Shown: positions 1 to 3,836 of the stretch, piece after piece
Layout of the letters: the number at the start of each line of letters is the position of its first letter
How positions within the stretch are numbered: the first letter of the stretch is position 1
Assembly: GCF_014644455.1 (NCBI RefSeq)
Contig: NZ_BMKS01000003.1
Coordinates: 27,930 to 91,929 of the forward strand
Length of the DNA: 64,000 nucleotides
Direction: 5' to 3'
Source of the DNA: Caldovatus sediminis
GTDB lineage: Bacteria > Pseudomonadota > Alphaproteobacteria > Acetobacterales > Acetobacteraceae
Program-made: the position numbers and the translations under genes
Notes under the pieces: model-generated
Databases searched by the model: none
Seen by the model: only the letters and a program-made list of their open reading frames with translations
Told to the model about the DNA's origin: nothing

Positions 1-603
1 CCCGCGCGCCGCGGCGCGCCGCGCGCCGCCGCCCCCGCCGCCGGCGCACGGCCACCGGCCGCGACGACGGCCGGGGGCGTGGCGGCAGGTGCGGCCGCCG
101 GCGCGGCCGCGGCGCCGCGGCCGCCCGAGGCCGCCGTCGCGCCGCCGGAATCTCCCCCGACGTGGCAGACCGGCCCGGTCACCGGGCTGCCGCTGCCGCG
201 CTTCGCCGCGCTGCGGTCCGACCAGGTCAACCTGCGTGCCGGGCCGGGCACCCGCTACCCGATCGAGTGGACCTTCCAGCGCCGCGACTGGCCGGTGGAG
301 ATCCTGCGCGAGCACGACGTCTGGCGGCGCATCCGCGACGTGGACGGCACCGAGGGCTGGGTGCACGTCTCCACCCTCACCACCCGGCGCAGCTTCCTCG
401 TGCGCGGCGGCGAGGAGCGCCTGCTGCGCCGCAGCCCGGATGCGGAGGCCGCCCCGGTCGCGCGGCTGCGCCCCGGGGTGATCGGCCGGCTGCGCCGCTG
501 CGAGGCCGACAGTGCCTGGTGCGAGGGCCAGGTCGGGAACCACCGGGGCTGGATCCGGCGCGCCGAGATCTGGGGCGTCTGGCCGGGGGAGGAGGTCAGG
601 TAG
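1..603 (+). CDS. SH3-domain protein, 5' end probably outside the window
   Basis: The reading frame is open from base 1 to TAG at 601-603. A GTG at 79 could be a start, but the Ala/Pro-rich stretch before it is also open and no signal peptide is visible, so the true N-terminus is probably upstream. The part seen has a bacterial SH3 (SH3_3-like) fold signature: VNLRAGPGTRYPIEW followed by a W-x-R/I pattern and EGWVH. A second, weaker SH3-like half includes WCEGQVGNHRGWIRR. Such proteins are usually periplasmic and bind peptidoglycan or partner proteins. No operon link to the nitrile hydratase-like genes 60 bp downstream is evident. The family is fairly certain; the role is unknown. Confidence 0.75.
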   Translation, partial: PARRGAPRAAAPAAGARPPAATTAGGVAAGAAAGAAAAPRPPEAAVAPPESPPTWQTGPVTGLPLPRFAALRSDQVNLRAGPGTRYPIEWTFQRRDWPVEILREHDVWRRIRDVDGTEGWVHVSTLTTRRSFLVRGGEERLLRRSPDAEAAPVARLRPGVIGRLRRCEADSAWCEGQVGNHRGWIRRAEIWGVWPGEEVR

Positions 604-662: not shown

Positions 663-962
663 ATGCCCGACGACGCCCCGGCCCACACCCCCGCCACCCA
701 CGACCTCGGCGGCGCCAGCCGCTTCCGCTGCACGCCGATCGACCCCGACGACTCGCCGCCCGACGACTTCGGGAAGCGGGTGGACGCGGTGCGCCAGCTC
801 CTCGCGCAGAAGAAGCTGATGACGGTGGACGAGCTGCGCCGCGGGATCGAGGCGATCCCGGCCGAGGAGTACCACGCCCTCGGCTACTACGAGCGCTGGC
901 TGCGCTCGATCGCCAGCCTGATGCTCGAGAAGGGCGTGATCGCGCCGGAGGAGCTGCGATGA
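663..962 (+). CDS. Nitrile hydratase / thiocyanate hydrolase beta-type subunit, N-terminal half
   Basis: This 99-residue protein matches only the N-terminal helical half of a nitrile hydratase beta subunit: HDLGG near residue 13, TVDELRRGIEAIPAEEY at about 54-70, then the YYERWLRS helix. By my alignment from memory, R59 of DELR corresponds to the conserved beta-subunit arginine that contacts the modified active-site cysteines. In ordinary nitrile hydratase this half is fused to the barrel domain encoded by the next gene. Here the two are separate, overlapping by ATGA. The order beta-N, beta-C, alpha matches the three-subunit thiocyanate hydrolase layout (scnB-scnA-scnC). The substrate cannot be decided from sequence. 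Confidence 0.85.
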   Translation: MPDDAPAHTPATHDLGGASRFRCTPIDPDDSPPDDFGKRVDAVRQLLAQKKLMTVDELRRGIEAIPAEEYHALGYYERWLRSIASLMLEKGVIAPEELR

Positions 963-1261
963 GCGCCGCCATCGCCCCCGGCGCCCGCGTGCGCGTCAGG
1001 GACGACTGGCCGGAGGAGCGCGGGCCGTGCCACATCCGCACGCCGCATTACGTGCGCGGCCGCACCGGCACGGTGGAGCGCGTGCTCGGGGCGTTCCCGA
1101 ACCCCGAGGACCTCGCCTTCGGCCGCCCGGCGCCGCGCCGGACGCTCTACCACGTCCGCTTCGACCAGAAGCCGCTGTGGGACGAGGGCAACCCGCGCGA
1201 CACGGTGCTGGTCGAGATCTTCGAGCACTGGCTCGAACCCCTTGCCGAAGGGAGGCACTGA
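959..1261 (+). CDS. Nitrile hydratase / thiocyanate hydrolase beta-type subunit, C-terminal barrel
   Basis: The start is ATG 959, which overlaps the preceding stop as ATGA, so translational coupling is likely. The 100-residue product is the SH3-like barrel half of a nitrile hydratase beta subunit: GARVRVRD, then CHIRTPHYVRGRTGTVER at about 23-40, then LYHVRF and a terminal EHWLEP. The H-x-R-x-P-x-Y-x-R-G stretch is the conserved core and carries the second arginine expected near the metal centre. The frame is open further upstream, but that part is only the shadow of the previous gene. The product should assemble with its two neighbours into one enzyme. Confidence 0.85.
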   Translation: MSAAIAPGARVRVRDDWPEERGPCHIRTPHYVRGRTGTVERVLGAFPNPEDLAFGRPAPRRTLYHVRFDQKPLWDEGNPRDTVLVEIFEHWLEPLAEGRH

Positions 1262-1262
1262 G

Positions 1263-1847
1263 ATGGCCGCCCCGCCCCGCCCGGAGAGCGTGGAACTGCT
1301 GGAGAAGCTCGTCGCGGCGCTGAGCGCCAGGGGCATCCTCACCGAGGAGGAGATCGCCGAGCGCCAGGCGATCACCGACCGCGCCTCGCCCGAGACCGGC
1401 GCGCGCATGGTGGCGAAGGCGTGGACCGATCCGGCCTACCGCGCGCTGCTGCTCTCGGACGGCACCGCGGCGGCGGAGGCGATGGGGGTGACCATGGCCG
1501 GCGCCCCGCCGCTCGGGGTGCTCGAGGACACGCCGACGCGGCACCACCTCGTCGTGTGCACGCTGTGCAGCTGCTATCCGCGCGCGGTGCTCGGCTATCC
1601 GCCGCACTGGTACAAGTCGGCGGCGTACCGGGCGCGGGCGGTGCGCGACCCGCGCGGCGTGCTCGCGGAGTGGGGCACGCACCTGCCGGACAGCGTGGAG
1701 ATCCGCGTCGTGGACAGCACCGCGGACTACCGCTGGATGGTGCTGCCGATGCGCCCGGCGGGGACGGAGGGGTGGAGCGAGGAGCGGCTCGCCTCGATCG
1801 TCACCCGCGACGCGCTGGTCGGCGTGGCGCTGCCCAGGGTGCCCTGA
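1263..1847 (+). CDS. Nitrile hydratase alpha / thiocyanate hydrolase gamma subunit, Co-type
   Basis: This 194-residue catalytic subunit carries the metal-binding claw VCTLCSC, with cysteines at about 99, 102 and 104, inside LVVCTLCSCYPRAVLGYPPHWYKS. Threonine after the first cysteine is the pattern of cobalt-type enzymes; iron-type enzymes have serine there. The length is normal for the family. The start at ATG 1263 is chosen because GGGAGG lies just upstream; an in-frame ATG 21 bases earlier falls inside the previous gene. The family hydrates nitriles to amides or hydrolyses thiocyanate. No P47K-type or small metallochaperone/activator gene is visible in the window. Confidence 0.9.
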   Translation: MAAPPRPESVELLEKLVAALSARGILTEEEIAERQAITDRASPETGARMVAKAWTDPAYRALLLSDGTAAAEAMGVTMAGAPPLGVLEDTPTRHHLVVCTLCSCYPRAVLGYPPHWYKSAAYRARAVRDPRGVLAEWGTHLPDSVEIRVVDSTADYRWMVLPMRPAGTEGWSEERLASIVTRDALVGVALPRVP

Positions 1848-2786: not shown

Positions 2787-3836
2787 ATGGCCCCGAACCG
2801 CAGCATCCCCTCGCCCACCCCCTACGGCCGCATCTTCCCGCCCGATCCGGCCTGGCTGGCGAGGCAGCCGCCGGAGCCGGTGCTCGAGCCCGACCTGCCG
2901 ATCGTGGACGCGCACCACCACCTCTGGGACCGGCCGGACGGCAACCGCTACCTGCTCGACGACTTCCTCGCCGACCTGCGCAGCGGGCACAACGTCGTCG
3001 CCACGGTCTTCGTGCAGTGCCACGCCATGTACCGCGCCGCGGGCCCGGAGGAGATGCGCCCGGTCGGCGAGACGGAGTTCGTCGCCGGCCAGGCGGCGAT
3101 GAGCGCGAGCGGCCAGTACGGCCCGACGCGCGTCGCCGCGGGCATCGTGGGCTTCGCGGACCTCGCGCTCGGCGACCGCGTGGAGCCGGTGCTGGAGGCG
3201 CATGTCCGGGCGGCGGGCGGCCGCTTCCGCGGCGTCCGCCACTCCGCGGCCTGGGACGCCGACCCGGTGATCGGCAACGGCCACCCCCATCCGCACCTGC
3301 TGCGCCGGCCGGAGTTCCGCGCCGGGCTCCGGCGCCTGACCGCGATGGGCCTCGCCTTCGACCTCTGGGTGTTCCACCCGCAACTGCCGGAGGCGGTGGA
3401 GCTCGTCCGCGCCTTCCCCGACACGCGGTTCGTCCTCGGCCATTGCGGCGGCCCGCTCGGCTACGGCCCCTATGCGGGGAGGCGCGACGAGGTCTTCGCC
3501 GCGTGGAAGGCGCCGATGGCGGAGCTGGCGCGCTGCCCGAACGTCGTCGTCAAGCTCGGCGGCATGATGATGCGCCTCGCCGCCTACGACTACGGCGCGG
3601 CGGAGGCGCCGCCCGGTTCCGCGCGGCTCGCGGAGCTCTGGCGCCCCTGGATCGAGACCTGCATCGAGCTCTTCGGCGCCGACCGCTGCCTGTTCGAGAG
3701 CAACTTCCCGGTCGAGAAGATGGGCATCGGCTACGCGGCGCTGTGGAACGCCTTCAAGCGCATCGCCGCCGGCGCCTCGCCGGCGGAGAAGGCGGCGCTG
3801 TTCGCGGGCACGGCGCGGCGGGTGTACCGGCTGTAG
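2787..3836 (+). CDS. Amidohydrolase family 2 (COG3618-type TIM-barrel hydrolase)
   Basis: This 349-residue protein has the metal-binding HxH start of the amidohydrolase superfamily (DAHHHLWD, histidines at 43-45). It continues with the family pattern FRGVRHSAAWD, then VLGHCGG, VVVKLGG and a late FESNFPVEK near the C-terminus, where the catalytic acidic residue normally lies. ATG 2787 follows AGGAGAAG, a plausible ribosome site. Relatives hydrolyse lactones and other cyclic or aromatic carboxylates such as 2-pyrone-4,6-dicarboxylate; the substrate cannot be called. It stands alone, preceded by the 17-bp inverted repeat and followed by a methyltransferase gene about 130 bp away. Confidence 0.88.
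   Translation: MAPNRSIPSPTPYGRIFPPDPAWLARQPPEPVLEPDLPIVDAHHHLWDRPDGNRYLLDDFLADLRSGHNVVATVFVQCHAMYRAAGPEEMRPVGETEFVAGQAAMSASGQYGPTRVAAGIVGFADLALGDRVEPVLEAHVRAAGGRFRGVRHSAAWDADPVIGNGHPHPHLLRRPEFRAGLRRLTAMGLAFDLWVFHPQLPEAVELVRAFPDTRFVLGHCGGPLGYGPYAGRRDEVFAAWKAPMAELARCPNVVVKLGGMMMRLAAYDYGAAEAPPGSARLAELWRPWIETCIELFGADRCLFESNFPVEKMGIGYAALWNAFKRIAAGASPAEKAALFAGTARRVYRL

Follow-up and report, generated by a model that had tools for sequence, protein, structure and literature searches.

The window, a 64,000-nucleotide stretch of Caldovatus sediminis DNA, contains three forward-strand genes whose products match the two halves of the nitrile hydratase (NHase) beta subunit and the NHase alpha subunit. 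The coordinates, gene order, overlap and metal claw given for them in the preliminary description were all exact. The features of the locus are as follows.

663-962, + strand: betaN, AnhD-like N-terminal half of NHase beta, 99 aa (PF21006, E = 1.9e-15)
959-1261, + strand: betaC, AnhE-like C-terminal half of NHase beta, 100 aa (PF02211, E = 4.4e-19)
959-962, + strand: ATGA start/stop overlap of betaC and betaN (sequence)
1263-1847, + strand: alpha, catalytic metal-binding subunit, 194 aa (PF02979, E = 1.5e-76)
837-839, + strand: R59 of betaN, aligned with position 56 of the Rhodococcus beta chain
1037-1039, + strand: R27 of betaC, aligned with position 141 of the Rhodococcus beta chain
1554-1574, + strand: metal claw V98-CTLCSC-104 of alpha (C99, C102, S103 and C104; sequence)
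1581-1583, + strand: Arg107 of alpha, directly after CYP (alignment)

The alpha ATG was located one base past the betaC stop, and the Pfam matches (NHase_beta_N, NHase_beta_C and NHase_alpha) were all far above the curated cut-offs. Masses of 11.1, 11.5 and 21.0 kDa were computed for betaN, betaC and alpha, respectively. In PDB searches, alpha was matched to NHase alpha (E = 1.9e-60) and to the gamma subunit of thiocyanate hydrolase (SCNase; E = 4.3e-52), betaN to the N-terminal half of NHase beta (E = 4.8e-6) and betaC to its C-terminal half (E = 4.9e-12). Both betaN and betaC were matched by the NCBIfam two-subunit beta model with sub-cut-off scores, as would be expected of half-length proteins, and the accessory-protein model TIGR03889 matched betaN weakly (16 bits, cut-off 46). 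Alpha scored 246.0 with TIGR01323 (nitrile_alph), a near miss of the cut-off of 249.85, and 209.6 with TIGR03887 (SCNase), under the cut-off of 291.45. The subunits had been described earlier as shorter than those of SCNase, and this was confirmed (99, 100 and 194 aa versus PDB chains of 126, 157 and 243 aa).

Relatives were collected by a scan of GTDB genomes, and the best 80 of 506 confirmed relatives were analysed. These loci were mostly titled Roseomonas-like, Acetobacteraceae or Rhodospirillales, with alpha identities of 66-87%. Within the best 80 of 506, alpha was present in 80/80, betaC in 76/80 and betaN-betaC-alpha in this order in 74/80; in all 74 loci with both halves, betaN and betaC lay in different frames. 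The last four bases of betaN in these 74 loci were ATGA in 42, GTGA in 25 and another sequence in seven. Because the same order and out-of-frame halves recur in 74/80 loci, the arrangement is not a chance one. BetaN was not found in six of the best 80 of 506, four of which had no detected betaC either; in five of the six, alpha lies no more than 360 bases from the start of the examined stretch. The sixth (L071), from a metagenome-assembled genome and possibly a chimera, had no beta halves beside alpha and, by visual inspection, a neighbour similar to a PLP-dependent sulfhydrylase. Another of the 80 loci, titled Terriglobia (L064), carried an alpha identical over the tree columns to that of a genome of the window's family (G065) and is probably a mislabelled bin. 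Of 249 genomes sampled from the window's family, 153 had an NHase_alpha match, a count that takes in all types of NHase alpha; with the window alpha as query, 59/398 genomes of the phylum gave a match, one of them weak and partial. In database records for plasmids of Agrobacterium rubi, the nearest named relative, and of Planktothrix, both beta halves were annotated 'SH3-like domain-containing protein', and in a Streptomyces record one beta half was annotated 'nitrile hydratase'.

The motif VCTLCSCYPR was invariant in the best 80 of 506 relatives (80/80). The claw, R59 of betaN and R27 of betaC each showed 97% or higher conservation among the aligned rows, as did 67 positions of alpha. In the Rhodococcus beta chain, the arginines at positions 56 and 141 presumably hydrogen-bond the oxidised claw cysteines. 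The claw CTLCSC is that of Co-type chains; chain 2zcf, which we take to be an Fe-type NHase, has CSLCSC. Directly after CYP, Arg was found in SCNase gamma (2dd4) and Trp in the two-subunit Co-NHase PDB chains compared; chain 3vyg, presumably an engineered R136W mutant, has W at the place equivalent to Arg107.

The 4.8-Mb assembly (98.55% complete) was then searched for partners and accessory genes. PF21006, PF02211 and NHase_alpha gave one match each in the whole assembly, all at the 663-1847 locus. A standard, fused beta subunit encoded elsewhere, raised earlier as a possible true partner of alpha, found no support in this assembly, the single PF21006 and single PF02211 matches both lying in the triad. 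The reported lack of a nearby activator was likewise borne out: an activator gene was found neither near the locus nor elsewhere in the 98.55%-complete assembly, in which the sole PF21006 match was betaN itself. No second betaN-like match that could represent P15K, which we take to be the name of the downstream accessory protein of SCNase, was found in the genome, and the cobalt transporter families NicO, CbtA and CbiM were without match there (each was matched in some control genomes). PF01425 amidase was matched 16 times elsewhere in the genome, two of the matches apparently in one frame. An aldoxime dehydratase query gave no match in the genome or in the controls.

Flanking genes were compared across the best 80 of 506 relatives. 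An SH3-domain protein (Pfam; window 1-603), encoded just upstream of betaN, had matches in 51/80 loci, and genes read by eye as ThiF/MoeB-like and DsrE-like recurred in 19 and 21 loci. These recurring neighbours look like shared family synteny and do not indicate a nitrile pathway, and no recurrent nitrile-pathway neighbour was found in the clade. A nitroreductase (1976-2623, - strand), convergent with alpha and with a sub-cut-off BluB match (69.9 versus 150 bits), and an amidohydrolase (2787-3836) were rejected as parts of the system, since both lay outside the frames matching at least three of the best 80 of 506 loci. With four amidase queries, a flank match was obtained in one of 113 betaN-betaC-alpha loci with Arg, namely that of A. 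rubi, in 5/10 loci with betaN fused to alpha and in both loci with Lys. On the A. rubi plasmid (L085, 1027-6585), two amidase-type genes, one of them annotated GatCAB subunit A, and a DMT transporter gene precede betaN-betaC-alpha. This operon, the sole catabolic-looking one seen in the clade, fits nitrile-amide catabolism; amidase or transporter partners of this kind were absent from the window locus.

For the wider comparison, 175 loci with alpha (the window being one row) were classified with home-made betaN, betaC, activator and alpha profiles; locus L168 was left out as it has no intact alpha. The residue after CxLCSCYP was Arg or Lys in 142/175 loci (132 distinct alphas) and Trp, Phe or His in 33/175. 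The activator profile was the best match in none of the 142 Arg/Lys loci, 139 of which had at least 1 kb examined downstream, and an activator match was found in 32/33 of the others. The Arg/Lys loci comprised 115 betaN-betaC-alpha loci, ten betaN~alpha fusions, five betaC-alpha-betaN loci, five loci labelled SCNase-type by layout because of a downstream betaN-like gene, and seven partial or other loci. Among the classified loci, Arg thus goes with the absence of a classical activator. It is not a mark of the split beta subunit, a reading ruled out by four loci with split beta and an activator that carry Trp. These four (L107, L127, L128 and L129) have the order alpha-betaN-betaC-activator, and because split beta occurs there together with an activator and Trp, the beta subunit may have been split repeatedly in evolution.

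On a 62-row bootstrapped tree, the division between Arg/Lys and Trp/His appeared as a single change at a 100/100 branch, so the association of Arg with the lack of an activator provides no independent statistic. This tree did not include the two Phe rows or the Fe-type PDB row, which fell on the Trp side of a 120-row quick tree. The window alpha was placed in a 100/100 clade of 24 rows: 23 Acetobacteraceae-type alphas and, on a long branch, the alpha from the A. rubi plasmid. Neither the SCNase clade (100/100), nor the activator-dependent NHases, nor the clade that unites the Microvirga and Streptomyces plasmid enzymes (100/98) included the window alpha; in agreement, it fell in a starred clade of 49 rows on the quick tree. 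The preliminary description had proposed an uncharacterised branch, to be abandoned on tight clustering with a characterised SCNase or NHase. The window alpha fell in no characterised clade on the tree, which is a statement about a tree without ToyJ and ScNHase AnhA, and a literature search found no paper or activity data on the Acetobacteraceae clade.

The likeness to toyocamycin NHase (TNHase) and SCNase rather than to standard two-subunit enzymes, also proposed earlier, held for the split beta subunit but not for membership of SCNase, which was rejected on the TIGR03887 score and on the position of alpha outside the SCNase clade. The two-subunit Co-NHases of P. putida, P. thermophila and Rhodococcus have the alpha family, the claw and the beta Arg pair in common with the window enzyme; unlike it, they have a fused beta subunit, an activator gene and Trp, Phe or His after CYP, and they lie on the far side of the 100/100 branch. 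TNHase of Streptomyces rimosus is an enzyme of antibiotic biosynthesis, a setting unlike that of the window enzyme. It is described as an (alpha-beta-gamma)2 heterohexamer with subunits of 21.2, 10 and 11.4 kDa (PMC8574189), masses similar to those computed here; the likeness is by description, its sequence being absent from the tree. The closest layout described is that of ScNHase from Streptomyces canus CGMCC 13662, an assayed enzyme with the order anhD-anhE-anhA, separate beta halves and no activator in the published account, in which AnhD is reported to act as a metal and subunit-swapping chaperone and cobalt to be inserted in vitro under reducing conditions without an activator (PMC7329996). 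This likeness too is by description, and given this precedent the architecture is not new. A 2026 review describes ScNHase as of the three-subunit type, branching with the S. rimosus enzyme (PMC13243292), and a 2023 survey presents NHases as two-subunit and built its NHase tree from beta-subunit queries (PMC10098168). A Streptomyces plasmid triad (L088) was used on the tree as a stand-in for ScNHase whose orthology is not established; it fell in another clade than the window and differs from it further in that its alpha tail is His-rich and a cobalt transporter gene lies nearby.

As judged from the genes and alignments, the triad probably encodes a three-subunit, non-corrin metal NHase of the ScNHase/TNHase type. 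The three products would form a complex with a low-spin metal, most likely Co(III), held by the C99-T-L-C102-S103-C104 claw of alpha. Of the claw cysteines, two would be present in oxidised form, as sulfinate and sulfenate, and the site would be closed by R59 of betaN and R27 of betaC through hydrogen bonds to their oxygens. A nitrile (R-CN) would be hydrated to the amide (R-CONH2), which could then be taken by an amidase encoded elsewhere in the genome. By analogy with what is reported for AnhD (PMC7329996), betaN may serve as a built-in metal and subunit-swapping chaperone, and the failure to find an activator gene would be explained by betaN itself acting in this role.

The same three-subunit enzyme might instead carry iron or another metal, which would explain why an activator, a His-rich tail and recognised cobalt transporters are all missing. 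Histidines before the alpha core were counted in open frames, with start sites uncertain, for 107 clade loci (the best 80 of 506, 20 of them on the tree, and 27 placed by the tree); six or more were found in the alpha N-terminal stretch of none (0/107), unlike most other types, and the A. rubi locus was counted apart. The corresponding counts were 10/12 for other split loci with Arg (A. rubi among them), 9/10 for betaN~alpha fusions, 19/21 for alpha-beta-activator loci with Trp, 3/5 for betaC-alpha-betaN, 0/3 for beta-alpha-activator and 0/4 for split loci with an activator. With no match to NicO, CbtA or CbiM in the genome and no His-rich tail on alpha, neither these transporter families nor such a tail would account for a supply of cobalt, and the Fe-type NHase of Comamonas Ni1 is reported to be expressed without need of an activator (PMC7329996). 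These points favour iron or another metal. Against this, the claw is that of Co-type chains and differs from the CSLCSC of 2zcf, the A. rubi alpha lies inside the clade on the tree and, unlike the rest of the clade, has a His-rich tail, and ScNHase is described as taking up cobalt without an activator (PMC7329996). We regard a metal other than cobalt as unlikely.

Thiocyanate or another small anion was considered as the substrate of a divergent hydrolase, with the Arg after CYP selecting thiocyanate-like substrates over organic nitriles. SCNase (2dd4) has three chains and CYPR in common with the window enzyme, CYPR is present in all 80 of the best 80 of 506 loci, and W stands in place of this Arg in 3vyg. 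However, the chains of SCNase are longer, SCNase-type rows form their own 100/100 clade with the window outside it, the TIGR03887 score of 209.6 is well under 291.45, and no P15K-like gene was found in the genome. The Microvirga-type three-subunit NHases, which form a separate 100/98 clade, likewise have a split beta subunit, CYPR and no classical activator match, with the order betaC-alpha-betaN. The alpha of Microvirga terrae carries CYPR in this layout, which is that described for the flonicamid-degrading NHase of Microvirga flocculans, in which the beta halves flank alpha (PMC11573777). M. flocculans being compared by description, this NHase-type layout with CYPR means that Arg need not indicate thiocyanate, and we hold a thiocyanate-type activity to be quite improbable. 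M. terrae has a nickel/cobalt transporter gene downstream, unlike the window. Within the SCNase-type loci, one member of the SCNase clade (L171) had no detected downstream betaN-like gene, and on plasmids of Roseomonas marmotae (L086, 4023-4874) and Azospirillum ramasamyi (L091, 2027-2878) the small subunits were joined in one 283-aa protein. That the triad is a decaying or non-catalytic relic kept by chance is very hard to credit: the clade has no recurrent pathway neighbours, but 67 alpha positions are at least 97% conserved, with the claw in 80/80 and the triad in 74/80 of the best 80 of 506 loci.

A further arrangement was observed in the window's family, in which betaN is fused to alpha via a His/Asp-rich linker (L132, L134, L136, L152, L153, L161 and L164-L167); no betaC match was found in the examined flanks of these loci. 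The fusions formed one supported clade (ten rows, 98*, on the quick tree; five rows, 100/99, on the bootstrapped tree). Eight of the ten fusion genomes were searched for beta halves and gave one betaC each, with two betaN matches in seven and one in the eighth (G045). In G045 the sole intact alpha is the betaN~alpha fusion (L136), and betaC (L168; G045:C1:203100-207500) is found on the contig at a distance of about 2.3 Mb, with an apparent small alpha C-terminal remnant after it; for these reasons betaC may serve the fusion in trans.

For the window enzyme, read as a three-subunit NHase, a wider proposal is offered tentatively. The clade may be a distinct helper-free NHase class, lacking an activator and a His-rich tail and perhaps also dedicated cobalt uptake, in which free betaN would be both active-site wall and chaperone and Arg107 would set a substrate range unlike that of the Trp-type enzymes. 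The superfamily would then have two sides, one with Arg and lacking the classical activator, the other with Trp and possessing it, two-subunit enzymes having arisen by beta fusion alongside a separate activator. The single Arg/Trp change on the tree makes the difference between the two halves of the superfamily testable at one residue. If maturation is truly helper-free, the enzyme would offer biocatalysis a simple scaffold and would bear on how an oxidised-cysteine metal site is built. The layout itself is already known; what stands out is that the window enzyme belongs to its own, apparently uncharacterised branch. The papers found describe few three-subunit NHases, yet the Acetobacteraceae version is common in one bacterial family.
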